33,088 nucleotides of DNA, taken from the IMG/VR virus record IMGVR_UViG_3300010413_002165, positions 1-33,088 of that record, one strand, 5' to 3'. The DNA comes from a virus. A model generated the notes under the pieces. The model did no database searches. It worked only from the letters and a program-made list of their open reading frames with translations, and had not been told where the DNA came from. Both the position numbers and the translations under genes were made by a program. Below are positions 1-22,054 of the stretch, in pieces. The stretch's first letter is position 1. Every line of letters starts with the position of its first letter.

Positions 1-645
1 TCTAGCAGCTCTTCTTCTGCTACTCCCCTATCTAGCAGTAGTTCCTCTGAGAGCAGCTCCTCTAGCAGTTCTAGCTCTAGTTCTAGTGAGTCTAGTTCCA
101 GCAGCAGCTCTAGCAAATCTAGTAGTAGTTCTAGCTCCAGTATATCTAGCTCCAGTAGCAGTAGCTCAGAATCCTCTAGCAGTTCTAGTTCTAGCAGGTC
201 GTCCAGCAGTTCTAGCTCTAGCGAATCCAGCAGCTCTTCTAGCAGTTCGCTATCTAGTAGCTCTAGTAGCTCCTCAGAGTCTAGCAGTAGCAGCAGCTCC
301 TCAGAGTCTAGCAGTAGCAGCAGCTCCTCAGAGTCTAGCAGCTCTTCTAGTAGCTCACTATCTAGTAGCTCCTCTAGTAGTAGTGAATCCAGTAGTAGCT
401 CTAGCAGTTCACTATCTAGCAGTAGTAGCAGCTCTGAATCTTCCAGCAGCTCAAAATCCAGCAGCTCCAGCTCAGAGTCCTCAAGCTCTTCTTCCTTGAG
501 CAGTTCTAGCTCTGTGGGTGCTGCTGTGCCTATAATAGTATTTTTTACTAAGAGTGTCACATTCAACTTTGTTACTAAGAGCAGACCATGTGGGTTAATT
601 ACTGAAGAAACAGATTTGAGTTTTACCACTAAGACTCCAGGGTAG
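1..645 (+). CDS. Serine-rich Ser8-X repeat protein, C-terminal part (5' end outside window)
   Basis: The frame starting at base 1 is open to TAG at 643-645 and gives 214 residues with no start in the window. Codons 1-171 are almost pure serine. Between codons 31 and 138 the pattern is eight serines then one other residue (K, I, E, R, E, L, E, E, E, L, E, L), twelve times in a row, with looser spacing on both sides. Serine codons TCN and AGY are mixed freely, so selection acts on the protein. The 43-residue tail from codon 172 holds three related motifs, FFTKS, FVTKS and FTTKT, and a single Cys. No enzyme domain is visible. By position before the head genes it is probably a virion stalk, fibre or appendage. 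Dense Ser tracts are typical O-glycosylation targets, and a glycosyltransferase cassette lies 8 kb downstream, but that link is inference. Confidence 0.8.
   Translation, partial: SSSSSSATPLSSSSSSESSSSSSSSSSSSESSSSSSSSKSSSSSSSSISSSSSSSSESSSSSSSSRSSSSSSSSESSSSSSSSLSSSSSSSSESSSSSSSSESSSSSSSSESSSSSSSSLSSSSSSSSESSSSSSSSLSSSSSSSESSSSSKSSSSSSESSSSSSLSSSSSVGAAVPIIVFFTKSVTFNFVTKSRPCGLITEETDLSFTTKTPG
91..414 (+). repeat. Ser8-X nonapeptide-coding repeat, 12 units of 27 nt
   Basis: Twelve consecutive 27-nt units each encode eight Ser and one variable residue, at codons 39, 48, 57, 66, 75, 84, 93, 102, 111, 120, 129 and 138. The DNA of most units differs by synonymous TCN/AGY changes while the nine-residue period is exact. 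Confidence 0.9.
271..341 (+). repeat. 27-bp near-identical tandem repeat inside the Ser-rich gene
   Basis: The unit beginning TCCTCAGAGTCTAGCAG starts at 271, 298 and 325. The first two copies are identical over 27 nt and the third matches over 17 nt. This contrasts with the scrambled codons of the other Ser8-X units and suggests a recent in-frame expansion. Confidence 0.8.
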
Positions 646-656
646 GAGAGTGAGAG

Positions 657-1010
657 ATGCCGAATATTCAGGGAAACAAGAAAATAGAGATCCAGCCCAA
701 TGATGACAAGAAGGCATATGGATTCACCGTAACTGTTTGTAGTGCCATTGGAGCCGATGATGGATTTCTTCCATACGGGAGGACTATATCAAGCTATACA
801 CTCAAAGCATACAAATACGATGAGACTGGAACTGATGCTTCTGCTGATCTTATTGATTCCAGTAGCAGATCAAATTTCGTTATAACAGTGAGTCTTCAAT
901 GGCCCACCACTAATGGGGCTGGTAGGTACAGGTTGACTTTCGTTTTGACGTTAGATGATGGATCTAAGCATGAATTTGACTATGGGCGTGTTTATTGCAG
1001 AGATCGCTAA
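657..1010 (+). CDS. Small beta-rich protein of unknown function, probable virion component
   Basis: 117 residues from ATG 657, preceded by a purine-rich GGAGAGTGAGAG stretch, with the TAA overlapping the next start as TAATG. The sequence is rich in alternating hydrophobic and polar residues (GFTVTVCSAIG, FVITVSLQW, YRLTFVLTLDDG), which fits a single immunoglobulin-like or other beta-sandwich domain. There is no signal peptide and no membrane segment. I do not recognise a family. It follows the Ser-rich repeat protein with a 12-nt gap, so the two were probably co-transcribed and may belong to the same appendage, for example as a cap or attachment domain. That role is inference from position only. 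Confidence 0.6.
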   Translation: MPNIQGNKKIEIQPNDDKKAYGFTVTVCSAIGADDGFLPYGRTISSYTLKAYKYDETGTDASADLIDSSSRSNFVITVSLQWPTTNGAGRYRLTFVLTLDDGSKHEFDYGRVYCRDR

Positions 1011-1723
1011 TGGTTTCTATAGTTATAGCAAAATGGTGTGGTAGTTGTGGGCAAATGAAGTCTTTCCAGGATTTCTACCTCTCTAAGAATAGGAAAGATG
1101 GGTTGCATACGTGGTGTAAAGAATGTCATAAAGCCTATGGTAGGGAGTACCACTTAACTAGGACGTATACGGAGGCGCAGAGAGAAGCTAGAAGAGCTAA
1201 AGATAAGGAGAGGTATTACAGGATTAAGGGTACTCCTGAATATGTAGATTATAAGAGAGATTACCAGAGAAGATATATAAAGACTGATAGGGCTAAAGTC
1301 GTTAGGAAGAGAGTCAATAAGAGGTGGAGAGAGGCCAATAGAGAATTATGCCTTAAGAGGGGTAGGAAATACTATAGAGATAACATTGAAGTCCGTAGGC
1401 AAGCTAGGAGGGATTACTATTATAGCAACAAGGGAATTTGTCTTGAAGGGGTGAGGAGGAGGAAGAGTAGAAAACTAGCCGCTGAAGGTTCATTCACGGA
1501 AAGGGAATTTGTGAGGATATACAATTTGTACGGATGCAAGTGTTTGGCGTGTGATGATACTGTCTCTTATGGAGAAATAACCAGGGACCATATTGTTCCT
1601 CTTGTGCATGGAGGTCCTGATTTTATAGATAATATACAACCGCTGTGTCTGAGTTGTAATCTTAGTAAAGGAACCCAAAGTGTTGACTATAGACCTTTTA
1701 TTTTGACGTTCAATACCAAGTAG
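1010..1723 (+). CDS. HNH homing endonuclease with N-terminal zinc ribbon
   Basis: 237 residues from ATG 1010, which overlaps the previous stop as TAATG; an upstream TTG at 995 is possible but not needed. The N-terminus has a CGSC...WCKEC zinc ribbon of the kind common in phage HNH proteins (CxxC, about 20 residues, CxxC). The middle is a long Arg/Lys/Tyr-rich region that probably contacts DNA. The C-terminus holds the HNH core: CLAC, then RDHIVPLVHGG with the catalytic His, then DNIQPLCLSCN completing the zinc site. Proteins of this type are free-standing homing endonucleases that nick or cut DNA to spread their own gene. It sits between two structural genes and is not inside a recognisable intron. 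Its target is unknown. Confidence 0.9.
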   Translation: MVSIVIAKWCGSCGQMKSFQDFYLSKNRKDGLHTWCKECHKAYGREYHLTRTYTEAQREARRAKDKERYYRIKGTPEYVDYKRDYQRRYIKTDRAKVVRKRVNKRWREANRELCLKRGRKYYRDNIEVRRQARRDYYYSNKGICLEGVRRRKSRKLAAEGSFTEREFVRIYNLYGCKCLACDDTVSYGEITRDHIVPLVHGGPDFIDNIQPLCLSCNLSKGTQSVDYRPFILTFNTK

Positions 1724-1788
1724 AGAGCTATTCTTAGAGGTTTTTTAGGTAGTAGTTTTGGACATTGGCAACATTGTAGAAATTATTC

Positions 1789-1817
1789 TTGACAGTAGTG
1801 AGCGAGGTAACTAGAAT
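1789..1817 (+). promoter_or_regulatory. Candidate sigma70-type promoter upstream of the head gene block
   Basis: A perfect TTGACA at 1789-1794 is followed after exactly 17 nt by TAGAAT at 1812-1817. It lies in the 111-nt gap between the HNH gene and the head operon. The predicted start near 1824 would fall at the GAGGAGG ribosome site (1824-1830), leaving almost no leader, which counts against it. The rest of the gap shows nothing else I recognise. Confidence 0.4.
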
Positions 1818-1834
1818 TCCTACGAGGAGGATTT

Positions 1835-2161
1835 ATGCGAGATCAGAACGCTAGAGTGGAAATAGAAGTCTTGAAGACAGAGATTCGTGAACTGAAGAGA
1901 AGACTGGAGATAGTAGAAAGCCACAGGATTTCAGACAATGGGTCAGTCTATAACCTCAAAGATTTGGAAGCTCGCTTTAGAACCCTAGTGAAAGAGCTAG
2001 GGTTTTCTTTTGATGACGGGGTTTTTGATAGAGATATAAAAGACCCTAATAGCTCTCTATTTAGAATTCAACTTCAAGTTGCTGCATTGGTTACTGCATT
2101 GGGACTAGAAGAAGCGTATAAAGAAGGCAAACTTGTCTATAGAGAGTCTAGGAGTAAATAG
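1835..2161 (+). CDS. Small coiled-coil protein of unknown function
   Basis: 108 residues from ATG 1835 behind a strong GAGGAGG (1824-1830). Residues 6-30 (VEIEVLKTEIRELKRRLEIV) have clear heptad spacing of Val, Leu and Ile and should form a parallel coiled coil. The rest is a mixed helical domain with no recognisable motif. It is followed after 2 nt by the portal gene, so it belongs to the head operon. Small coiled-coil proteins in this place can be scaffold-like or terminase-associated, but the sequence does not decide this. Confidence 0.65.
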   Translation: MRDQNARVEIEVLKTEIRELKRRLEIVESHRISDNGSVYNLKDLEARFRTLVKELGFSFDDGVFDRDIKDPNSSLFRIQLQVAALVTALGLEEAYKEGKLVYRESRSK

Positions 2162-2163
2162 AG

Positions 2164-3810
2164 ATGTCTACAATAAGAGGATCTTCTATATCTTTAGCTG
2201 ATACTAGTTTGATGACTGCTCCACCATCTTCTATCTCTGGGAAGTCATGGGCAGAGTTGGAGACCTTTTTTGCAAGGGAGCGGCAGGATACTGGAAGGGA
2301 CTACAAGAAGGATGTTAGAAAGCAGATAAAGGAGTATAGAAGTTGGGTGTTTAGCGCAGTGGATTGTATCTCTGATCGCTTCTCTTCAGTCGATTTCAAC
2401 TTCTATCGTACAGATAATAAGCAGGAGTTACTCCCTAGCAGTCCCTACTACAAAGCCATAACTAAGCCTATCCTTTATCCAAATAACTACATGACGTTCA
2501 GTTTTATCAAAGCTTGGTGCCAAGTTCAGTTGGACCTATGTGGCAAAGCAGCCATTTTGAAAGTAAGAAATAAGCTGGGGAAAGTGTGGGAACTATGGCC
2601 TTTGGATATGAACCAGTATCATGGTATAAATGGCCCTGAAAATAACCCTCTAAAACCCCCCAACGGGTTTAAATTCAGAATTGAGGACGAGTTATACATT
2701 TTTCCTATAGAGAATATAATTTGGTTGCGATATCCCCACCCAGAGAGTTTATGGGATGGGTTTTCACCCATTCAATCCCAGGCGTATGCTACTGATATAG
2801 ATTACTACCTAGAAGTGTACGAGAGAGGATTCTTCAAGAATTCTGCTAGGGTGGACTTTATTTTGGAACATGAGGGAAACCTTGACGAGGAAGGTGCTAC
2901 CAGGCTTAAAGACCAATGGGTTAAAGCGTATGGTGGATACGACAGATCGTATCAACCAGTGGTGGCATCTGGTGGGCTGAAGGTAGTTCCTATAACTATG
3001 AGCAACAAAGACTTCCAGTTCATAGAGACTGCCAAATGGACTAAGGAGAAGATCCTATCTGCCTATAGAGTACCTGAAGGTAAACTAGGTTTGTTTGAAG
3101 ATATCAATAGGGCCAACCAAAAAGGTATAGATATTGCGTTCAACGAGGAAGCTATTGCCCCCAGGTGTAAGCTGTGGGATGTGGAGATTACTAAGCAGCT
3201 CATATGGGAATTTACCAACTTAGTTGAGATGAAGCACGATAACCCAGTTCCTAGAGATAGGGAGATGGATCTAAAAGAGCTAGAGCTAAGGGGCAACGGA
3301 GTTCCTATAAATACTCCCAACGAATTGCGTGTTTGGTGGGATGGTAGGAAGCCTGTAGAAGGAGGAGATGTGATCCTCATTGACAACAAGCTGATCCCTC
3401 TAGGGATGGCTGGCGAGATAGAAGATCCAGAAGGTGGTGGAGATCGGCCTGGGTCTGGTTCGGATGATCCTGAGTATGATCCTGAGAATGATCCTGGTGG
3501 GGATGAGTCAGACAAGGCAGTTACTGTAGTTATGGAGAGGGCTATACGCCAGATTGTGGTTGACTACGATAAGGCTCTAGCTAATACAAACGGGTGGTCC
3601 TACGATAAAGCTGAGGAATATGCCCAGAAGAGACTAGAACGTACATCGTTGGGTAAGGAAGTAAAAAGTCTGTATGTAGATAGTATCAAGGATGGTTTGA
3701 GTAGGAATAGTTTTAGGGACAGGTTGCTGAAATTTTTGGCTGGAAAAGTGTATAGGCGAGTTCGGAAATCAGAAAACAATACGGTAAAGGTTCCTACAGA
3801 TAAGGAGTAG
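2164..3810 (+). CDS. Portal protein, HK97 family
   Basis: 548 residues from ATG 2164. The core follows the HK97-type portal pattern: an N-terminal stretch with SWVFSAVDCISDRFSSVDF, a central segment with LWPLDMNQYHG and IIWLRYPHPESLWDGFSPIQ, then the clip and stem region including DFQFIETAKWTKEKILSAYRVP. Portals form the dodecameric ring at one capsid vertex through which DNA is packaged and to which the connector binds. From about residue 418 an acidic Gly/Asp/Pro linker (EDPEGGGDRPGSGSDDPEYD and onward) leads to an extra helical C-terminal domain of about 95 residues that ordinary HK97 portals lack. The gene is followed at once by the protease and capsid genes, the standard order. Confidence 0.92.
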   Translation: MSTIRGSSISLADTSLMTAPPSSISGKSWAELETFFARERQDTGRDYKKDVRKQIKEYRSWVFSAVDCISDRFSSVDFNFYRTDNKQELLPSSPYYKAITKPILYPNNYMTFSFIKAWCQVQLDLCGKAAILKVRNKLGKVWELWPLDMNQYHGINGPENNPLKPPNGFKFRIEDELYIFPIENIIWLRYPHPESLWDGFSPIQSQAYATDIDYYLEVYERGFFKNSARVDFILEHEGNLDEEGATRLKDQWVKAYGGYDRSYQPVVASGGLKVVPITMSNKDFQFIETAKWTKEKILSAYRVPEGKLGLFEDINRANQKGIDIAFNEEAIAPRCKLWDVEITKQLIWEFTNLVEMKHDNPVPRDREMDLKELELRGNGVPINTPNELRVWWDGRKPVEGGDVILIDNKLIPLGMAGEIEDPEGGGDRPGSGSDDPEYDPENDPGGDESDKAVTVVMERAIRQIVVDYDKALANTNGWSYDKAEEYAQKRLERTSLGKEVKSLYVDSIKDGLSRNSFRDRLLKFLAGKVYRRVRKSENNTVKVPTDKE

Positions 3811-3814
3811 GCAA

Positions 3815-5371
3815 ATGGCTTATAAAATTATGCAGAAGGGGAGGGATGGGGTTCTTAAGGAAGTTGTCCTTCGTGGCGAAACTGTTATGGGTTCTGATTT
3901 TGATCCAGGGGATGTGGAGCTAAAGCAGTTTGATGATGAGGAGAGGTCATTTACTGCCATAGGCAGTACGGGGAACCCTGACAGGATGGAGGATATTGTA
4001 GACCACAAAGGGTGGGTCTTAGACAACTTCATCAAGAATCCAGTGGGTATGTGGGCGCATGATTACAAGCAGCTACCTATCTTCAGAGTTCCTGAGATAG
4101 AAGTGAAGCCCAGGACAAAGAAGATGATCTTTCGTGCTGTCTTCGATGATCATGAGTTTGCGGATACTGTGTACCAGAGCTACAAGAAAAAGTTTATGAA
4201 AGGTTTTTCTGTAGGATTTCTACCGTTGGAATACGAGATGCGTAGTAGAGATGAGATGACAGATGAAGAAAAAGCCAGGGCTGGTTTTTGGGGCGGTATG
4301 CATTTCAAGAAGCAGGAGCTTCTAGAGATGAGCGCTGCTCCTATTCCCATGCATCCAGAAGCCTTGGCTGACATTAAGGCTATGGGCATCCCTACTGATG
4401 TAGAAGCCAAATGCCTGTTCCCTGCTATTAAAACCACCATGCCTGATGGGGGTCAGTGGTTCCCCATAGAAGATCCAAGCAAGTTTATGGATTTTGTCTC
4501 TTATAAACTTGGGGATGGGGTGAGAACAATAAATGGCAGGGAAATGGCTAGAGAAGACGGGGCTTCAGTTTCCTCCATAGCCAAAGTCGTTGGATATATT
4601 TTTCCAGCAGATTTTGAAGAGGAGAGGATAGCAGTATGGCTATCCAAGAGTGGGTTGTCCGACAATAGGATAAACACTTTGGTAGGAACCTCTACTGGCA
4701 ATTCCGTAGGACTAGAAATAGGAGAAGATGGGGAGTTTAAATTAAATCTAGATGGCGCTAGTATAACCTCAGCATCAACAGATGCTGAACCTTCTGGGGA
4801 TTTTAATACACCCAGTACAGACGTAGAGGTTCCTACCACTACTGCTAGCACAGATGATACTGAGGACAATGTAGAAGAAGTTGTTGACAATGTGGAAGAT
4901 GTATTGGTAAAGATAAGGGAACCTGAGAGTATAGTCCTAGAGGAGGGTGCTCTTATAATCAACACTGAGCTAGGACAGATTACTTTCGATGTGGAAAAGT
5001 TGAAAGAGTTCGGTATAGAAATAGGCAAAGAGGTACTTCTTAACGTGGCTGATAGAGACAGATTTGAAAAGGCTATATACACTATAGCCACACTGCTAGA
5101 GAAGAACTATAAGCTAGAACCCGTTCCTGAACTAGATGTTCAGCCTGACGAGGAAGAGACAGTTCTTGCTGATGTTGGATTGGTGCTTGAATCTATTCGT
5201 GATGAAGCTGCTACTGCTACTGAAATTGTGTTAGATGACGGAGTTATCGTGGATGCTGACAGTGACGAATTTTCAGATATAATATCTGAAGTCCTTACGG
5301 AGCAACTGGGGGCTGCTGTAGGAGATGTAGTTAAACGCAAGATGCGAGAAGCCTCTGGTAATCTGGAGTAA
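3815..5371 (+). CDS. Prohead maturation protease (peptidase S78/HK97 gp4-like) with long acidic C-terminal extension
   Basis: 518 residues from ATG 3815 with GGAG upstream. The N-terminal 200 residues match the HK97-type prohead protease: GSTGNPDRMEDIVDHKGW, then MWAHD with candidate catalytic His82, and MKGFSVGF with candidate nucleophile Ser132. This enzyme cleaves the capsid delta domain inside the procapsid and then itself. Typical family members are about 200 residues, so the remaining 320 are unusual. They include an acidic Thr/Ser/Glu/Asp-rich linker around residues 320-365 and Glu/Val-rich helices to the end. Since the capsid delta domain here looks short, the extension may supply scaffolding function, as protease-scaffold fusions do in other phages; that is inference. 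Confidence 0.88.
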   Translation: MAYKIMQKGRDGVLKEVVLRGETVMGSDFDPGDVELKQFDDEERSFTAIGSTGNPDRMEDIVDHKGWVLDNFIKNPVGMWAHDYKQLPIFRVPEIEVKPRTKKMIFRAVFDDHEFADTVYQSYKKKFMKGFSVGFLPLEYEMRSRDEMTDEEKARAGFWGGMHFKKQELLEMSAAPIPMHPEALADIKAMGIPTDVEAKCLFPAIKTTMPDGGQWFPIEDPSKFMDFVSYKLGDGVRTINGREMAREDGASVSSIAKVVGYIFPADFEEERIAVWLSKSGLSDNRINTLVGTSTGNSVGLEIGEDGEFKLNLDGASITSASTDAEPSGDFNTPSTDVEVPTTTASTDDTEDNVEEVVDNVEDVLVKIREPESIVLEEGALIINTELGQITFDVEKLKEFGIEIGKEVLLNVADRDRFEKAIYTIATLLEKNYKLEPVPELDVQPDEEETVLADVGLVLESIRDEAATATEIVLDDGVIVDADSDEFSDIISEVLTEQLGAAVGDVVKRKMREASGNLE

Positions 5372-5385
5372 AGGAGGGGTTCTGT

Positions 5386-5794
5386 ATGGATCGTGAAAAA
5401 ATTAAGACTATCCTCAATGAGCTTATTGGGGGACAGTTGGGAGCTATGGTAGCTGCTGATGATTCTCCACTCAGGAAGGTCATAGACAGTGCTATTGCAA
5501 ATGCGGTAAGTGAGCTTCAGGAGACGTTAGCTGCTACCCCTACTCTTGGTCAGCCGAGTGGCACTACAAGCGACCAGATGGTTCGGGAAATGCTACCCAT
5601 GTCAAGGAGTATGGGCGGTCAGATGATTGCCACTCCTCAGGGGTCTATCCTGGATCTCAGTAGGAAACACGCTCCCTGGATACGGTGCTCTGAGGAAGTG
5701 GCTGCATGGGCTAGAGACTTTAGCCAGCTCCTGGCTAGCAAGGGTACTAAGGTAGGGAAGACTCTTCAGGAGTCAACTGATCCCCAAGGCGGGT
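5386..5794 (+). CDS. Major capsid protein (HK97 fold), exon 1
   Basis: Exon 1 starts at ATG 5386 behind AAGGAGGGG and encodes residues 1-136 plus the first base of codon 137. It holds a helical N-terminal region of about 100 residues (the delta or scaffold domain in this family) and the approach to the N-arm, ending QESTDPQGG. Without splicing the frame runs on to a stop at 5839-5841 and gives a useless 151-residue product. Joining base 5794 to 6587 restores GGYLVPEEF, the conserved start of the HK97-type capsid domain. The joined protein is 428 residues, normal for the family. Confidence 0.9.
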
Positions 5795-6586
5795 ATGAAC
5801 TAGATATGGCTGATGGCTATGAGATAGCCAAGGCAGCTTAAAGGGACACTAGATGCCCACCATAAACCATACTTCGTTGCTGGAAACTCCTAAAGACCTT
5901 GCTACTACTAAGGTGACAATGCAAGGTATGAGTCCCAAGGAGGACAAAATGGACAATCAGCAGGCGACTCTAGCCGAGATAGCGTGGTTGGCAGGATTCA
6001 TTGACGGTGATGGATATATAGGGATAGTGAAAAACAATAATTATAAGACCCAAAGGATTGATAATGGAGCTACTGCAATGATGCATATCTCAAATTGTGA
6101 TGAGAAGATAATTCTCAAAGCTAGAGATATCATGCGGAAGCTGGGTCTCAATCCATATATCCGTTCATATAATGCTAAGAAGAGAGGTAACAGAGATCAT
6201 TACAGAGTGCAGGTAAAGCACATGAGAAAGATGATCAAATTGCTCACTCCTCTTCTTCCTTATCTATCTGGTGATAAGCAGAAGAGGGCTGAGTTAGTGC
6301 TAGAGTTCTGTGAGTCTAGGTTGAATCAAGAACCTAGTCCTATGCCCAAGATAGATGGTGCTGGCAGATTAAACTCTGGTACTTGTAAACCTCTCACATA
6401 CCGTCAATTGGAGATCCTGGATGAGTGTGGAAGGCTATCTGCTAGAGGGGCTTCATCGACTGCACGTATGGCAGCTCGTAAGAAAAGCGAAATCCGTTTG
6501 GAGAGAGCAGTACATCATTATCTCAACGGACAGCCTAGTAGAGCTGAAGATACAGTCAGGCTTTAGGCGAAAGCTTAGAGGTTATG
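5795..6586 (+). ncRNA. Group I self-splicing intron interrupting the major capsid gene
   Basis: The exon end GGCGGGT (5788-5794) pairs with GCCCACC (5855-5861), including the required U-G wobble at the splice site, to form P1. CTAGAT (5849-5854), directly 5' of that guide, pairs with the 3' exon start ATTTAG (6587-6592) to form P10. The intron ends in G (6586). Core elements are visible: TGCTGGAAACTCCTAAAGAC at 5878-5897 (P4/P5 region), GACTG (6458-6462) pairing with CAGTC (6553-6557) as P7, and AAGATA (6547-6552) just before the latter as J8/7. The P1 loop is enlarged by a hairpin, GGCTAT/ATAGCC (5815-5829). Splicing restores the capsid frame exactly. Length is 792 nt, including the endonuclease gene. 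Confidence 0.9.
5949..6566 (+). CDS. Intron-encoded LAGLIDADG homing endonuclease
   Basis: 205 residues from ATG 5949, chosen because AAGGAGG (5937-5943) lies 5 nt upstream; an in-frame ATG at 5853 has no such site and falls in P1. One LAGLIDADG motif is present, LAGFIDGDG at residues 14-22 with the catalytic acid, so the enzyme probably acts as a homodimer. The body (HISNCDEKIILKARDIMRKL, then KLLTPLLPYLSGDKQKRAEL) fits a single-motif family member. It would cut intron-free capsid genes and so spread the intron. The C-terminal part, from about residue 150, is encoded by the ribozyme 3' core itself, and the stop lies 20 nt before the 3' splice site. Confidence 0.9.
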   Translation: MDNQQATLAEIAWLAGFIDGDGYIGIVKNNNYKTQRIDNGATAMMHISNCDEKIILKARDIMRKLGLNPYIRSYNAKKRGNRDHYRVQVKHMRKMIKLLTPLLPYLSGDKQKRAELVLEFCESRLNQEPSPMPKIDGAGRLNSGTCKPLTYRQLEILDECGRLSARGASSTARMAARKKSEIRLERAVHHYLNGQPSRAEDTVRL

Positions 6587-7464
6587 ATTTAGTCCCTGAG
6601 GAATTTCGTGCCACCCTATTGATGTACGATGCCGAGCCAGCAGTAGTGTGGCCCAGAGCTACCATTTGGCCTATGACTACAGATAAGCTGGGAATGCCCA
6701 AGTTGGCCCAGCGCCCCGATGGTATAGCTGGTGATGACTATGACCACCACGCAGGGGTAATTTTCACCTGGACAGAGGAAGGTGGCACCAAGACTGAGAC
6801 GGAACCCACTTTTGAGTTCATTGAACTGATTGCTCATGAATTGAGTGGCTACACTGCTCTCACCAACATCCTTATCTCTGACAGTGTTATCAACATTATG
6901 AACTTCCTTACTGCTCTTTTCCGCTCAGCGTGGATTTGGCAGACCGATAAGGAATTCATCAGAGGTGATGGTGCCAACAAGCCTCTAGGTATCGTAAGTG
7001 ATCCCCTTGTTCTTACCGTGAATCGGCAGACTGCTGGTACAGTTACCTTCACCGATGTCAATGCTATGAGAACTATGCTTCCTAGCGTTTTTGATGCTGG
7101 GGCAGTGTGGTTGCTCAACAAGCAGGTCGAGGGCGCTCTCAGGAATGAGAGAGATACTGGTAATGCTCTCCTCCTGCAGGAGTTCTATAGCAATCTGGCT
7201 GATGGGTACGTCCCGCAGATGCTTGGCTATCCTGTCATTAGAGCTGATGGGAAGACTTACCCGATGGGAACCAAGGGTGATGTCATTTTGGCTAATCTGC
7301 GTTACTACTATGTCGGTGATCGGCAGAACTTTACCATGGATAGCAGCACTCACTATCTCTTCCGCAGCAACAAGACTGCGGTGCGGGTGAGTGGTCGTTT
7401 GGATGGGCAGTGCTCTATTCCTGAAGCCTTCGTTGTCCTAGACGATGTTGCTACCGCTAGCTAA
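6587..7464 (+). CDS. Major capsid protein (HK97 fold), exon 2
   Basis: Exon 2 supplies the last two bases of codon 137 and residues 138-428. It begins LVPEEFRATLLMYDAE after the Tyr made at the junction and carries the usual order of HK97-type capsid domains. There is a strand around ATIWPMTTDKLGMPKL, an extended acidic stretch (TWTEEGGTKTETEPTFEFIE), the spine-helix region (SVINIMNFLTALFRSAWIW), then GDGANKPLGIV, a typical capsid motif, and a C-terminal beta-rich A-domain ending FVVLDDVATAS. It forms the shell hexamers and pentamers. Codon use is slightly richer in GC and C-ending codons than the glycan genes, as expected for a highly expressed product. Confidence 0.92.
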
Positions 7465-7482
7465 TAAGGGGGGTGAATAACC

Positions 7483-7908
7483 ATGAGTATGAAGCGTGAT
7501 AGGGTAAATAACGAAAAGATTATCCCCTTCGTGGTCCCAGCTACCTATACCACTAACACTGGTATTATTACAGCCAACTGGGATACGATGCACGGGAGAT
7601 CAAACCCCACCAACATGCTCCTCACCCTCATTATGGGTACTTGGGGAGCAGGTGGTGTAGTAACGGTAAGGGTTCAGCATTGTGCCACCAGTAACGGTGT
7701 GTATACTACCCACAAGACGCTGGCGAATGCCACCCAAGCGTCTGGTATTGCCTGTTGGATTGCCCAGGTGAGTGACTTCCAGAGATTTGTCAGATTGAAT
7801 TTCGATGTGACAGTCGCTTCCTGTGTGCTCTGCATCATAGGTAATCTGGCTAGGGGTCGTAGAGAGCCTGTTACTCAAGAGAATGTGGCTACTCTGGCTG
7901 TCACCTAA
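7483..7908 (+). CDS. Probable capsid decoration or stabilising protein
   Basis: 141 residues from ATG 7483 (a second ATG is at 7489), with GGGGGGTGAATAACC upstream, 18 nt after the capsid stop. The sequence is Thr/Val/Ala-rich and predicted all-beta: TLIMGTWGAGGVVTVRVQHC, then FQRFVRLNFDVTVASCVLC. There is no signal peptide. It has no motif that I recognise, but its position directly after the capsid and just before a strong terminator matches capsid cement or decoration proteins. The C-rich, highly biased codons resemble the capsid gene and fit an abundant structural product. If the glycan cassette decorates the head, this protein is one possible acceptor, which is inference. Confidence 0.65.
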   Translation: MSMKRDRVNNEKIIPFVVPATYTTNTGIITANWDTMHGRSNPTNMLLTLIMGTWGAGGVVTVRVQHCATSNGVYTTHKTLANATQASGIACWIAQVSDFQRFVRLNFDVTVASCVLCIIGNLARGRREPVTQENVATLAVT

Positions 7909-7927
7909 TAACTGTCACCTAATTTTC

Positions 7928-7976
7928 CCTCTGCCTAGTAGCTTTTTTAGTGCTAGGCAGAGGTTTATATATTTTT
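7928..7976 (+). terminator. Strong intrinsic terminator after the capsid module
   Basis: CCTCTGCCTAG (7928-7938) and CTAGGCAGAGG (7953-7963) form a perfect 11-bp stem with a 14-nt loop. It is followed by a T-rich tract, TTTATATATTTTT (7964-7976). It separates the abundantly expressed head genes from the glycan cassette and should lower transcription of the latter. Confidence 0.9.
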
Positions 7977-7998
7977 GGAGTTCCTAGCGGAGGTGGTT

Positions 7999-8304
7999 AT
8001 GTCTACAGTAGAAATAGAACTTATGGATAGATCTCTAATCAGGAGATACGGGAAAAGAACGATAACCGTATCTATGTCGGACGCAGCGAGATTAATAAAG
8101 CAGAATAAAGCAAGGGCTAGAGCCACAGGATTTGATGGACCTCCGGTTGATAAGATGATAGGCAGTCCTCCTGCTGCTAAGGGGGCGGCACTACCAGACC
8201 CTTTGTCCGTAGTGGAGGAAGAACCCAAGAAAAAGAAGAAAAAGAAAGCTTCCTCCCCAGACCCCAATGGTACGGACAAAGTGAGTATTGCTATAGAAAA
8301 GTAG
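7999..8304 (+). CDS. Small Lys/Pro-rich protein at the cassette boundary
   Basis: 101 residues from ATG 7999, chosen because GCGGAGG (7987-7993) lies just upstream. The N-terminal half is a small folded unit with ITVSMSDAARLIKQNKARA, a pattern seen in small proteins between capsid and connector genes of many tailed phages. The C-terminal half is low-complexity: EEEP followed by seven Lys, then SSPDPNG. It ends VSIAIEK at TAG 8302-8304. The downstream glycosyltransferase is open in the -1 frame through this whole tail and has no start codon of its own near its conserved beginning, so this gene may also serve as the entry point for a frameshift product. Function unknown. Confidence 0.7.
   Translation: MSTVEIELMDRSLIRRYGKRTITVSMSDAARLIKQNKARARATGFDGPPVDKMIGSPPAAKGAALPDPLSVVEEEPKKKKKKKASSPDPNGTDKVSIAIEK
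8296..8304 (+). promoter_or_regulatory. Candidate -1 frameshift site at a stop codon (GAA AAG TAG)
   Basis: The small upstream gene ends GAA AAG TAG. A one-base slip back of the Lys tRNA from AAG to AAA at the A-AAG tetramer, helped by the slow stop codon, leads straight into GTA GCT TGG, the conserved start of the glycosyltransferase. A short CTTG/CAAG hairpin follows. A missing A in the A4 run would have the same effect, so a mutation or a sequencing error is also possible. Confidence 0.35.
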
Positions 8305-9224
8305 CTTGGGTTCAAGATGCAGAAATATTAGGGGGAGCCGAATTATCCAACCTCCAGGTTATCCGTAGGGGAATAGAGCTTGGATTCTCCGTAAAGGTAA
8401 TTACTCCGCAATCATTTGATAGGGATTGGGTAGCATCTTCTGACTTTATCATATTCAACAATTTTTACTGCTTTGATACACAACTATTCCACTTCTTGCT
8501 TAAAGTTGTATGGGAATGCGGTAAGCCATACGCAATCTATTCCCATGACCACAGAGATATTATAGGGGAAGATACAGCTAGGCCGAGGTTTGCCAGAACA
8601 TGGTTCAACCGTTCATTTTTAAATGTATTCATTTCTCCTATGCACAGGAACAACTTCTTGGAGCATCTGGGAGAGGTGATTAATCCGACTCACATATTGA
8701 CCCCACCTATTGACACTGATTTCTTTTATCCTAGAGATGTGCCACGTAGAATAAATTCTGTAGTAAATCTTACTGGTAGGTTGGTTTCCAGTAAGGGAAT
8801 GCTAAATATCTACAAGTGGGCTGTAGCCAATCCTACTCATACAATAGATGTGTACACTAAGTATGCTGACGGCACTAGTGGCAAGCTGCTGTCCGCTAGA
8901 CCGAATATAAGTATACATGGTCCTGTGCCTTACAAGATGCTGCCGCAGATCTACTCTGAGAGCGCTCATGTTATTCACTTACCTGTAGCTCTAGAAGCTG
9001 CTGGTAGGACTATTGTAGAAGGTGCTCTATGTGGATGTGGGACTATTATGAACGATAGAGTAGGGATAGCCTCTTTTAGTGAAGAGGAGTTGCCTATAGG
9101 CAGTATTCAAAGGCTGAGGAAGGTATTAAGAGAAGGTCCGTATAGATTCTGGCGTTTTGTGGCTCATCATTTTAGCAAGCTGAGGCGGTATCCAGAGATA
9201 GCAGGTAGATGGTATGAGGCGTAG
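8298..9224 (+). CDS. GT4-like glycosyltransferase lacking a normal start codon
   Basis: About 308 residues in the frame ending TAG 9222-9224. The N-terminus KVAWVQDAEILGGAELSNLQ carries the Gly-Gly-Ala-Glu loop typical of GT-B enzymes, and the C-terminal domain has ALEAAGRTIVEGALCGCG, the EX7E nucleotide-sugar site. A substrate sugar cannot be predicted. From 8181 to 8495 this frame has no ATG, GTG or TTG. The TTG at 8496 would delete about 65 conserved N-terminal residues. The protein is therefore probably reached by -1 frameshifting from the small gene before it, or a base is missing near 8298-8301, in which case GTG 8281 would be the start. It opens the glycan cassette. Confidence 0.75.
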   Translation, partial: KVAWVQDAEILGGAELSNLQVIRRGIELGFSVKVITPQSFDRDWVASSDFIIFNNFYCFDTQLFHFLLKVVWECGKPYAIYSHDHRDIIGEDTARPRFARTWFNRSFLNVFISPMHRNNFLEHLGEVINPTHILTPPIDTDFFYPRDVPRRINSVVNLTGRLVSSKGMLNIYKWAVANPTHTIDVYTKYADGTSGKLLSARPNISIHGPVPYKMLPQIYSESAHVIHLPVALEAAGRTIVEGALCGCGTIMNDRVGIASFSEEELPIGSIQRLRKVLREGPYRFWRFVAHHFSKLRRYPEIAGRWYEA

Positions 9225-10443
9225 AAACGAAAAAGGAATATTCGTAAAAACACATGGAGAAAGTAATACTCCATTTTATTACTGTTGGCGAGATATGAAG
9301 CAGAAGTGCAGTAATCCTAATAGTAGCCTTTACTACCTATATGGAGAGAAAGGAATTAAGGTTTGTAGTAGATGGAATAAATATAAGAACTTCAGAGATG
9401 ATATGAGGCTAAGCTATTTAATAGCTGCATATATGTTTGGGGCTAAAAATATATCGTTAAACATGGTTGATAAGAATAAAGGATTCAGCCCAGATAATTG
9501 TGAGTGGGTGCTTAGTGCTAGAAGGCCGTATAGAGAAATAAATCCAGATAAATTAGTATTGAAACATAGGCAAAGTAGTTCTCTGGAAGAGAAAATAAAA
9601 TGGAGTAAAGACAGAATAAGGGATTGGTATGAGATATGGGGTGGTGGTGTATCTGTATCTTTCTCTGGAGGAAAAGATTCAACTGCTCTATTGCATTTGG
9701 TGCGGTCTATATATCCTGATGTTCCTGCCGCTTTTATAGATAGTGGATTGGAATATCCTGAAATAAGGGCTTTTGTTAAGACGATAGATAATGTTACTTG
9801 GCTGAAACCAAAAAAGCCTTTTATTAGAGTAATAAAGGAATATGGGTATCCTGTAGTAAGTAAGAAGGTGGCTAGGCAAATTGCTCGTTTGAGGATGCGA
9901 AATGAGAAGAATAAGGCTAGTTGTAATTTGTATCTGGAAGGGATCACTAAGAAAGGGTATTATGCTCCTAGATGGAAGCTGCCTAAAAGATGGCACAGTT
10001 TAATAGATGCTCCCTTTAATACTTCTGCTAAATGCTGCTACTTTATAAAGCAGCAACCTCTTCGCAAATACGCTTACGAAACTGGCAGAAAAGCTATGGT
10101 GGCAGTTAAGGCTGAGGACTCTATGGCTAGAACTAATTTATTCCTCTCTATAAAGTGTAGCAACAACTTTAGTGGAATAGAGCCTACTTCCTACCCACTT
10201 AGTTATTGGACTAATAAGGATATCTGGAGGTACTTGAGAGACTACTCTGTCCCTTATTGTAAGATATATGATGAAGGAATAGAAACAACAGGCTGCATGT
10301 TTTGTTGTTTTGGAATCCATTTGGAGAAAGAACCAAATAGATTTCAATCTATGAGACATACTCACCCTAAAATATATGACTATTGCATACATAAGCTTGG
10401 TATAGGGGATATACTAGATTACATAGGTGTTCCATATGAGTGA
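9214..10443 (+). CDS. Homing-type N-terminal domain fused to a PAPS-reductase-family ATP pyrophosphatase
   Basis: 409 residues from ATG 9214, overlapping the glycosyltransferase by 11 nt. Residues 10-105 (FYYCWRDMKQKCSNPNSS, YGEKGIKVCSRW, then FSPDNCEWV) match a small domain usually found alone in phages and resembling homing-endonuclease accessory modules. From about residue 125 it is a PAPS-reductase-family protein: SLEEKIKWSKDRIRDWY, the P-loop SGGKDS at residues 151-156, DSGLEYPEI, and a Cys-rich C-terminus with GCMFCCFG. Family members bind ATP or adenylyl-sulfate compounds; phage versions have no settled role. Two sulfotransferase-like genes downstream make sulfur metabolism for glycan sulfation plausible, but this is inference. 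The fusion is unusual. Confidence 0.82.
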   Translation: MRRRNEKGIFVKTHGESNTPFYYCWRDMKQKCSNPNSSLYYLYGEKGIKVCSRWNKYKNFRDDMRLSYLIAAYMFGAKNISLNMVDKNKGFSPDNCEWVLSARRPYREINPDKLVLKHRQSSSLEEKIKWSKDRIRDWYEIWGGGVSVSFSGGKDSTALLHLVRSIYPDVPAAFIDSGLEYPEIRAFVKTIDNVTWLKPKKPFIRVIKEYGYPVVSKKVARQIARLRMRNEKNKASCNLYLEGITKKGYYAPRWKLPKRWHSLIDAPFNTSAKCCYFIKQQPLRKYAYETGRKAMVAVKAEDSMARTNLFLSIKCSNNFSGIEPTSYPLSYWTNKDIWRYLRDYSVPYCKIYDEGIETTGCMFCCFGIHLEKEPNRFQSMRHTHPKIYDYCIHKLGIGDILDYIGVPYE

Positions 10444-19807: not shown

Positions 19808-20774
19808 AAGGCCAATTAGAGTAGTAACTCTAGGAGATTGGGATCACTATTTTAGTTATTATCTAGCTGGTACACAAGAGGGTTCAATCCTTAATGGGTG
19901 CTGGTTTAGGCCAATAAATATTAGGCAGAATTGGAAAGGGATACGTAAAAATCTGGATGAGTTTAAGCCAGATATCCTTTTCTGCCATATGATTTTTGGC
20001 AAAGACGAGGAGAAAGTTTCAAAGAATCTCAAGGAACTGCGTGGGTTGAGAAAGCGTATAGGCACAAAGGTCTATTACCATTTGGGGGATGCTAGAACCG
20101 AGCCGAGATATCCTCACGATATATCTGATAGTGTGAATGCCTGTCTGGTGAATCAAACTGCCAACCTGCAATACTTTAGTAATCTATGGAAAGTCCCTAC
20201 GTACTACTGGCCCTATGGCTGTTTCTACCAGAAAGAAATAGCTGCTCCTGTTGAGAAATTCAAACATGGTTTAGTATTTACTGGTAGATTAAACGAGAAA
20301 GGGATACATGCCCACAGAACTAAATTTATAAACGATCTGCAAAAGTATATAGGAGTTACTGTTTACCCTAGCAACGAGTATCCAGATACCAAGTTACTTA
20401 CTGCAGAAATAGCAGCTTCAGCTAAAGCTATTCTGGGTGTGTGTGCTGGATACGATATACGAGGATACATGGATGTGCGTCCGTTTCAGTATCTAGGAGC
20501 GGGGGCATTTTTGCTACAGCGCTACTATAGTGAGATGGAGAGGGTGTTCATACTTGATAAGCATATGGTGGTGTTTAAGAAGGATGATCCAGAGCTAGTT
20601 TATCATTTGTACAAAGAGTATATGGATAGGCCAGAAAGAGTATGGAGGATAAGAGAAGCTGGGTTTAATTTCTGTCAAGCCAATCACAGTATGTATCATC
20701 GAGTTAAAGATGTTATAGATATTACTTATGGTGGAGCTGCTAGTACTAGAGTTTTTCTGGAGGACATTTCATGA
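19794..20774 (+). CDS. CgeB-like GT-B glycosyltransferase, second paralogue
   Basis: 326 residues from GTG 19794, supported by AAGGAGAT about 6-8 nt upstream, all inside the 3' end of the HNH gene. The sequence opens LKPKRPIRVVTLGDWDHYFS, then KPDILFCHMIFGKDEEK, LVFTGRLNEKGIHAHRTKFI and YMDVRPFQYLGAGAFLLQRY, the CgeB-like donor-side block. It ends HRVKDVIDITYGG as in its paralogue at 17519. It is intact despite the insertion beside it. Donor unknown. Confidence 0.75.
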   Translation: MLKPKRPIRVVTLGDWDHYFSYYLAGTQEGSILNGCWFRPINIRQNWKGIRKNLDEFKPDILFCHMIFGKDEEKVSKNLKELRGLRKRIGTKVYYHLGDARTEPRYPHDISDSVNACLVNQTANLQYFSNLWKVPTYYWPYGCFYQKEIAAPVEKFKHGLVFTGRLNEKGIHAHRTKFINDLQKYIGVTVYPSNEYPDTKLLTAEIAASAKAILGVCAGYDIRGYMDVRPFQYLGAGAFLLQRYYSEMERVFILDKHMVVFKKDDPELVYHLYKEYMDRPERVWRIREAGFNFCQANHSMYHRVKDVIDITYGGAASTRVFLEDIS

Positions 20775-22054
20775 AGGTTACTAGAACGTATGAGTATGCC
20801 AGAATAAACGATGATCTAGGCATCATAGATGTAGATGGGCAGATACATAGCGCTGAGATAGGAAAGCACAGCATTTGGATTCCTACTATGGAAGCCAAAT
20901 TTCCCTTTCAGTACAACGGTCACTTTGTTGAGTATAGAGATTGGGAGTTGGGGCAACATGCTGAAAGTATAAGAAATCACACCTTTGGCACTGAAGACAC
21001 CTACTCCTACGATTCTCTGCTAAATATTGTAGAGGAGTACATAATATTTGACTCTCTATGGAGGAAAGGATTTGCTCCTAAGGTGAATGGGTTTTTCTAT
21101 ATTAAGAACCTCATTAGTGATTTTCCCTACGGAGCTTTCCATTGTGATCCAAAGGGAGCCTATGGATTCTATTTCCAGAACGCTAATACTATAGAACCAA
21201 CGGAATTCGATGTGGATAAGTTTAAGAAGGAATTTATCGAATCTGGTTTTCTCACATGCTCAGATGCTGCCCTCAGTGATATTTTGCTAGAAGGTAGGTG
21301 TAATCACATAAACGGCTATGTAGTAGATATTCGTAGGAGTGTCCATGACGCTGTGCATTTGGCTGGCATGGATATCTTTAGAGAGAGATTGAGGGAATAT
21401 GCTGTTAAGCTTTGTTTCAAAGACGAGTTGACCAATATAAAGAGAAAAGTCCAGGAGCTGGGCCAATTTCCTTATAAGGAACGATCTCAGCCTTACCAGA
21501 GCTATTGGCTTGGAGATAAGTACATAAAAGGATCTAGGGATGTGCGGTATAGATTTGATAAAATGCTCCTCCCAGAGAATATGAGAGGCACTACTATATT
21601 AGATCTTGGCTGCAATATAGGTAGCGTGTGCCAAGAGAGCTACAGACGGGGAGCTAGAAAGATAGTAGGGATGGATTCTGAGAAAGCCTACATTGATTGT
21701 GCTAGAGATATAGCTAGATATAATGGGCATCAAATAAATTTTGTAGTTACTGATTTAGCTGTAGATCCTGAGAAATTGGTCGATTACGTTAATACTTATT
21801 TCAAAGAGCCTATTGGAGCTGTATTTGCGTTGGCACTTTATAAGCATATTGGTGACAATTTATGGGAGATTCTAGACAATATTAGGTTCAAAACTCTTTA
21901 TGTTGAGAGTTCAAGTTGTAAGGATGAGACAACTCCACATGTAGTTGAAGTAGATCAGCAATTAAAAAGGAGGTACAGTACTGACTTTTTGGGGTTCACC
22001 GAAGACAGAAGCAAACGAGCTATATGGAGGTGTGTAAATGCCCACAATGTTTGA
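20771..22054 (+). CDS. Two-domain protein with C-terminal SAM-dependent methyltransferase
   Basis: 427 residues from ATG 20771 (ATGA overlap). The N-terminal 250 residues show no motif that I recognise; they contain FHCDPKGAYGFYFQN and CNHINGYVVDIRRS, which is somewhat reminiscent of kinase-like folds, but the evidence is weak. From about residue 273, TTILDLGCNIGSVCQE is a clear methyltransferase motif I, followed by KIVGMDSEKAYIDCARDIA (acidic loop) and FVVTDL. It could methylate a sugar or a phosphate-linked intermediate, with the N-terminal part binding the substrate. It overlaps the sulfotransferase-like gene by 17 nt. Confidence 0.7.
   Translation: MKVTRTYEYARINDDLGIIDVDGQIHSAEIGKHSIWIPTMEAKFPFQYNGHFVEYRDWELGQHAESIRNHTFGTEDTYSYDSLLNIVEEYIIFDSLWRKGFAPKVNGFFYIKNLISDFPYGAFHCDPKGAYGFYFQNANTIEPTEFDVDKFKKEFIESGFLTCSDAALSDILLEGRCNHINGYVVDIRRSVHDAVHLAGMDIFRERLREYAVKLCFKDELTNIKRKVQELGQFPYKERSQPYQSYWLGDKYIKGSRDVRYRFDKMLLPENMRGTTILDLGCNIGSVCQESYRRGARKIVGMDSEKAYIDCARDIARYNGHQINFVVTDLAVDPEKLVDYVNTYFKEPIGAVFALALYKHIGDNLWEILDNIRFKTLYVESSSCKDETTPHVVEVDQQLKRRYSTDFLGFTEDRSKRAIWRCVNAHNV

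Follow-up and report, generated by a model that had tools for sequence, protein, structure and literature searches.

The break in the major capsid gene of this viral contig is almost certainly a mobile, self-splicing group I intron belonging to a capsid-targeting endonuclease lineage, with splicing, cleavage, and homing predicted from sequence. We analyzed a whole IMG/VR record of 33,088 bases, a single metagenomic contig classed as a linear fragment (here called the window). In the list of open reading frames (ORFs), the capsid frame runs from 5386 to 5841 and stops at a TAA (5839-5841), giving an unspliced product of 151 amino acids. After 6586, the PF05065 capsid domain picks up in a different frame and ends at 7464, and this second part also matches phrog_10 (Table 1). 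Genes for a portal (2164-3810) and a protease (3815-5371) lie upstream, so that the Pfam order PF04860, PF04586, PF05065 reads portal, protease, capsid. By its content and gene order, the interrupted gene is an HK97-type major capsid gene. When 5795-6586 was removed in silico, the result was a 428-amino-acid protein with QGGYLVPEEF at the junction (junction region of the predicted spliced peptide, ...DPQGGYLVPEEF...). Because the unspliced frame ends after 151 amino acids, it is a fair inference that shell production would depend on splicing.

Using the latter half of the capsid as the query against viral contigs, we found three relatives (L002, L003, and L004) in which this gene is uninterrupted. 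L002, also an IMG/VR contig, is 99.4% identical to window positions 1-5796 and 99.9% identical to 6592-9218 and lacks the insert; its capsid gene is a single unbroken ORF of the predicted spliced length (428 amino acids), with one residue different. DNA identity is 85 to 91% for L003 and about 74% for L004. The L002 junction reads CAAGGCGGGTATCTCGTCCCTGAGG, and that of the window with 5795-6586 taken out reads CAAGGCGGGTATTTAGTCCCTGAGG, with the same length and the same protein there. Since L002 reads through with equal length, the net insert is 792 bases, the length and the GGYLVPEEF product that the first-pass annotation had given. This natural empty site is the best proof of the predicted intron insertion.

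The same annotation had placed the splice sites to the base. The sites are supported, but the DNA alone leaves three equivalent junctions (after 5794, 5795, or 5796) that yield an identical product. We chose 5794/5795 and 6586/6587 because of the group I rule of a U before the 5' splice site and a terminal G, which here is G6586. In exon 2, the window and L002 differ by a silent change, TTA in the former and CTC in the latter, by which P10 is built; the position of the exon 2 strand of P10 reads ATCTCG in L002. No co-conversion tract is seen on the 5' side, where the closest position that differs from L002 is 5533. The guide GCCCACC could pair perfectly with GGTGGGT, the exon sequence of L003 and L004, while the window exon reads GGCGGGT. 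Both the guide mismatch and the silent TTA are compatible with an intron that came from a relative along with a short conversion tract, or with adaptation once it was in place. Because almost the same phage exists in forms with and without the intron, homing has a natural control here, and the case is clean and testable.

Two other differences from L002 were seen. At 4777-4822, in the protease/scaffold gene, the otherwise near-identical contigs differ by many closely spaced substitutions and in length, by 9 bases in frame. At the left end, window 1-645 has several matches to adjoining positions 3-726 of L002, in overlapping registers and at 64 to 74% identity, which suggests a tandem array of related segments. 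Elsewhere in the window, upstream of the portal gene, an HNH/endonuclease VII-like gene (995-1723; PF01844, phrog_1035) is possibly another free-standing homing endonuclease, and one protein (9214-10443) joins an N-terminal HNH/restriction-like stretch (phrog_8790, phrog_374) to a PAPS-reductase domain (PF01507, phrog_424). From 8496 on (8496-32705), six of the seven window ORFs scanned against PHROGs had no match, and 20771-22054 has a weak match to tRNA methyltransferase-like PHROGs, leaving the larger part of the tail-side half apparently unassigned.

TABLE 1 Capsid exons, intron elements, and endonuclease gene in the window
Feature	Position	Strand	Evidence
Capsid exon 1	5386-5794	+	ORF list; continuous with L002; spliced translation
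P1 exon strand GGCGGGU, U5794 at splice site	5788-5794	+	Exon-guide covariation over 38 introns
Group I intron, 792 nt	5795-6586	+	Absent from near-identical L002; held-out covariance models R1 and R2
Hairpin GGCUAU-GAG-AUAGCC in long P1 loop	5815-5829	+	Sequence
P10 intron strand CUAGAU, directly 5' of guide	5849-5854	+	Sequence
P1 internal guide sequence GCCCACC	5855-5861	+	U.G at splice site, one C.A mismatch with window exon
P3 5' strand CCAUAC	5867-5872	+	6/6 pairs with 6466-6471; covariation across 16 introns
P4-P5 domain	5878-5962	+	R1, 75.7 bits, E 1.2e-18; RF00028, 15.8 bits
P4 UGCUGG/UCAGCA; J4/5 AAA; P5 between	5878-5883/5957-5962	+	
Shine-Dalgarno AAGGAGG of endonuclease gene	5937-5943	+	Sequence
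LAGLIDADG homing endonuclease gene, single motif, 205 aa (MDNQQ...WLAGFIDGDG...)	5949-6566	+	PF14528, 8.6e-6; PF00961, 4.5e-5; AlphaFold model vs I-MsoI
P6 5' strand CUCUAGC, endonuclease gene in L6	5968-5974	+	P6 covariation over 28 introns
P6 3' strand GCUAGAG	6441-6447	+	P6 covariation
P7 5' strand GACUG	6458-6462	+	R2, 49.0 bits, E 2.4e-13
P3 3' strand GUAUGG	6466-6471	+	Pairs with 5867-5872
P8 5' strand CAGCUC	6472-6477	+	P8, 6 bp
P8 3' strand GAGCUG	6541-6546	+	P8, 6 bp
J8/7 AAGAUA	6547-6552	+	Invariant among relatives
P7 3' strand CAGUC	6553-6557	+	R2 match; P7, 5/5 pairs
P9 CUUUAGGC-GAAA-GCUUAGAG	6561-6580	+	R2 match
P10 exon 2 strand AUUUAG	6587-6592	+	Sequence
Capsid exon 2	6587-7464	+	PF05065, 6.6e-38; phrog_10, 3.1e-42; joined to exon 1 in L002

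The elements of the intron are listed in Table 1. P10 and the terminal G are both present as first described, and so is P1 with its U-G pair, although the C.A mismatch in this helix had gone unmentioned. P7 is GACUG/CAGUC in the window, with a G-C pair where most relatives have A-U (GACUA/UAGUC), a compensatory change.

We left the window out and used relatives to build two covariance models, R1 for the 5' half of the core and R2 for the 3' half. R1 matched window positions 5867-5964 (75.7 bits, E 1.2e-18) and R2 matched 6450-6581 (49.0 bits, E 2.4e-13); elsewhere in the window neither gave anything below E 0.19, and neither matched the intron-less alleles of L002, L003, and L004. The models do match two capsid introns known as such, those of Lactococcus phage Tuc2009 and mycobacteriophage LittleE. 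The Rfam model RF00028 scored 19.7 and 15.8 bits on the window, one match per core half, below its gathering cut-off of 50, which is a database threshold and not a biological criterion; the scores are weak because a 470-base gene separates the core halves. No Rfam family reached its gathering score in the window, a miss that is uninformative because the same threshold also fails the canonical introns in L008 to L016 and the LittleE capsid intron, which is proven by RT-PCR and scores 30.7 bits with RF00028. The covariance-model check of the core that the first-pass annotation had proposed is thus positive with R1 and R2 and falls short with RF00028 at a cut-off that is unfair to such introns.

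Pairing in the predicted helices tracks across relatives. For P1, the mean score over 38 introns was 13.64, compared to 9.17 when guides and exons were randomly re-paired (maximum 10.80 of 5,000). For P3, 89 of 96 positions were paired across 16 introns, compared to a shuffled mean of 61 and a maximum of 79 of 2,000, and P6 scored 15.07 over 28 introns, compared to 12.32 (maximum 14.18 of 5,000). Relatedness among the introns is left out of such partner-shuffle nulls, and the P7 anchor for the P3 count was the one with the best P3 match, which slightly favors the observed P3 value, so all these figures, P6 included, are supportive rather than exact. With the exon position left free, 6.5% of shuffled exon regions attain the score of the window P1, and this helix is therefore not decisive by itself. 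The claim of a group I intron in the major capsid gene is borne out by the empty allele, the held-out models, and the covariation in relatives.

The endonuclease gene within the intron has one LAGLIDADG motif with DGDG intact. It likely starts at 5949, because AAGGAGG lies just upstream and relatives have the same start on the P5'/P4' strand. An AlphaFold model of the product (mean pLDDT 77.1) matched I-MsoI with a Z score of 16.0 and a root mean square deviation of 2.7 over 156 residues, and it also matched I-CvuI and I-CreI (Z 14 to 16 across the three). On this model, the product is an I-MsoI/I-CreI-type LAGLIDADG endonuclease. The start of the gene overlaps P5'/P4', and its 3' end spans P7, P3', P8, and J8/7. 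In L011, L014, L008, and the window, whose endonucleases are of unrelated families, the start codon falls within the same ATGGACAATCAGCAG stretch (P5'/P4'). Since start codon and P5'/P4' share a strand, translation start and ribozyme folding would compete for it.

As a single query, the window endonuclease found no relative in viral contigs, genome contigs, phages, or plasmids, and blastn of the locus against phages gave no match. Only a two-sequence profile of the window and L013, both capsid-borne, opened the family, with 107 relatives in viral contigs, of which the best 80 were fetched and the longest ORF in place was taken as the adjacent one. Among these best 80 of 107, 43 of the 50 ORFs adjoining lineage endonucleases match a major head protein (all by PHROGs except L037, by Pfam), although the 43 cases are not independent, since closely related members inherit their target. 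The matched head proteins fall into seven PHROG families (10, 267, 1357, 9953, 334, 371, and 1328), and these families together with the deep branches argue against a single inheritance. Seven adjacent ORFs had no capsid match (L028, L033, L066, L061, L072, L079, and L089); on inspection by eye, L033 and L028 (56 amino acids, at a contig end) look similar to the L031 and L037 capsids, and L066 adjoins a terminase. Most capsid-associated relatives are introns that share the core of the window, and at least five (L048, L052, L070, L075, and L082) are without it and stand free just upstream of intact phrog_267 capsid genes. The first-pass remark that introns in phage capsid genes are uncommon fails for this lineage, whose members are mostly in such genes.

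In HK97-type genes, the insertion falls at GG[T/C/A]GGGT in the window, L017, L018, L020, L021, L023, L024, L026, L027, and L032, and in L025 four nucleotides earlier. The L018 site was read by eye, the automatic P1 search having preferred another place, and its junctions in L026 and L032 lie one nucleotide further on. These 11 members are inserted at the same Gly-Gly codons, and their endonucleases group together (support 94/89); this HK97-site group needs one change in 94% of bootstrap trees. Over the whole endonuclease tree, the capsid labels need 12 changes, compared to 28.7 when shuffled.

We considered the association with capsid genes as a property of the ribozyme core and rejected it. 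Control introns found by the P4-P5 motif, not by the endonuclease, lie in genes for terL (L010), tape measure (L011), DNA polymerase (L016), a crAss-like major head protein (L014), another capsid (L015), and a Sak4-like protein (L009), and same-core introns with a different LAGLIDADG family, that of L008, interrupt DNA polymerase in all three tested (L098 to L100). As the same core with other endonucleases is mostly found in other genes, it is the endonuclease family, not the ribozyme, that goes with the capsid. For comparison, a published survey of free-standing T5orf172 endonucleases put capsid genes in 31% of their neighborhoods (PMC10448857).

Some more distant relatives in bacterial genomes sit outside capsids. 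In Acidobacteria (L104, L105, L107, and L108), the endonuclease follows sequence resembling the 5' half of a tRNA gene, which suggests tRNA introns with LAGLIDADG genes; ARAGORN called no split tRNA at these four loci. In a deltaproteobacterial metagenome-assembled genome (L101, 696-2330), a lineage member with 42% identity interrupts a capsid-like gene whose 3' exon looks, by eye, like that of L031 and of L034. The 3' core model has several matches in or just after one capsid region in L079 (3463, 4520, and 4880) and L062 (1242 and 2234), and some of these capsid genes may hold two or three introns. Searches with four family members found no instance of the lineage in 50,697 phage records, and in open-access papers we found no description of a capsid-specialized LAGLIDADG group I lineage in phages.

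Thus, the window intron is ordinary in kind, while its lineage looks capsid specialized. We think it probable that group I introns with I-MsoI-like endonucleases specialize in the major capsid genes of tailed phages and have crossed several capsid families without clear sequence similarity, one sub-lineage being fixed on the HK97-type Gly-Gly-[Tyr/Phe/Leu] codons with its guide re-evolved for each site.

Could the intron be real yet dead, defective in splicing, or the contig an assembly chimera with no true allele behind it? This exact intron is a single metagenomic copy, its P1 has one C.A mismatch, and L002 has the gene without the insert, all of which such an account would accommodate. Set against these are the intact core helices, J8/7, U.G pair, terminal G, and P10, an intact endonuclease ORF with a ribosome-binding site, and, in other contigs, independent introns at these codons with endonucleases of the same group; moreover, the breakpoints of a chimera would not lie where excision gives back the exact length. 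We therefore regard a dead or chimeric copy as very unlikely.

Two accounts without a group I intron are far less probable still. Ribosomes might bridge the gap by bypassing or frameshifting in the style of T4 gene 60, with the endonuclease gene as a mobile insert; short bypass elements are associated with homing genes, and the gap does hold an endonuclease gene. However, 792 nt far exceeds, to our knowledge, the length of known bypasses, and neither the complete, covarying group I core nor a guide that tracks the exon across relatives agrees with bridging, which we give almost no credence. The insert might equally be an intein or a group II intron, given its LAGLIDADG domain, since LAGLIDADG proteins occur in both. 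Yet exon 1 runs into a stop codon and the endonuclease lies in another frame, which speaks against an intein, and Rfam searches of the window returned no group II family where a group I core is present; the chance of either is just as slight.

For the mobile group I intron that we favor, the following course is proposed. In capsid pre-mRNA, the P3-P9 ribozyme would hold the end of exon 1 by its guide GCCCACC and the start of exon 2 by CUAGAU beside the guide, and two transesterifications would excise 5795-6586 and restore QGGYLVPEEF. Translation of the endonuclease would begin from a ribosome-binding site of its own inside the core, and the I-MsoI/I-CreI-type homodimer would most likely cut intron-less capsid alleles at the conserved Gly-Gly-Tyr codons; cleavage at the insertion site is suggested by the empty allele and the shared site. 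The intron would then be copied into the cut allele during mixed infection.

A single endonuclease lineage has repeatedly ended up in major capsid genes, and these belong to several capsid families. This raises the question of whether an intron gains from residence in the late gene with the highest conservation and expression or whether capsid DNA has a common target feature that one endonuclease scaffold recognizes. In practice, a capsid gene split in this way can easily pass for a truncated or missing capsid in metagenomes.

Enzymes of the I-MsoI, I-CreI, and I-CvuI type act as homodimers and come from organellar rRNA introns. The window enzyme shares with them the fold, the DGDG motif, and a group I intron as host; it differs in sequence, with about 20% identity, and in its target, a phage capsid gene. 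Introns L009 to L016 of phages (in terL, tape measure, DNA polymerase, and others) share the TGCTGGAAACTCC...GGACAATCAGCA core motif, and in several the endonuclease start overlaps P5'/P4', but their endonucleases are of other families and their target genes mostly different. The intron in the major structural protein gene of Tuc2009 likewise belongs to group I and interrupts a head gene; it is annotated as excised and both models match it, but it has an HNH endonuclease and a different capsid gene and site.

The mirusvirus "shintrons" also carry homing endonucleases specialized on HK97-type major capsid protein genes (PMC12768974). They are spliceosomal, with HNH enzymes, in viruses of eukaryotes (PMC12768974), whereas the window has a group I intron with a LAGLIDADG enzyme in a phage. 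The closest studied case is LittleE (JF937101), a group I intron with a LAGLIDADG gene at the Gly-Gly-Tyr motif of an HK97-type capsid gene, matched by R2 with E 8.7e-8. Its 819-bp capsid-gene insert has the LAGLIDADG gene on the other strand, and RT-PCR together with N-terminal sequencing of the capsid across GGYAVP demonstrated its splicing (PMC3706429). tblastn with the window protein did not find the LittleE endonuclease. We rejected insertion at the exact LittleE position: by the rule of U and terminal G, the LittleE splice site follows GGT GGT and lies one nucleotide upstream of its counterpart in the window.
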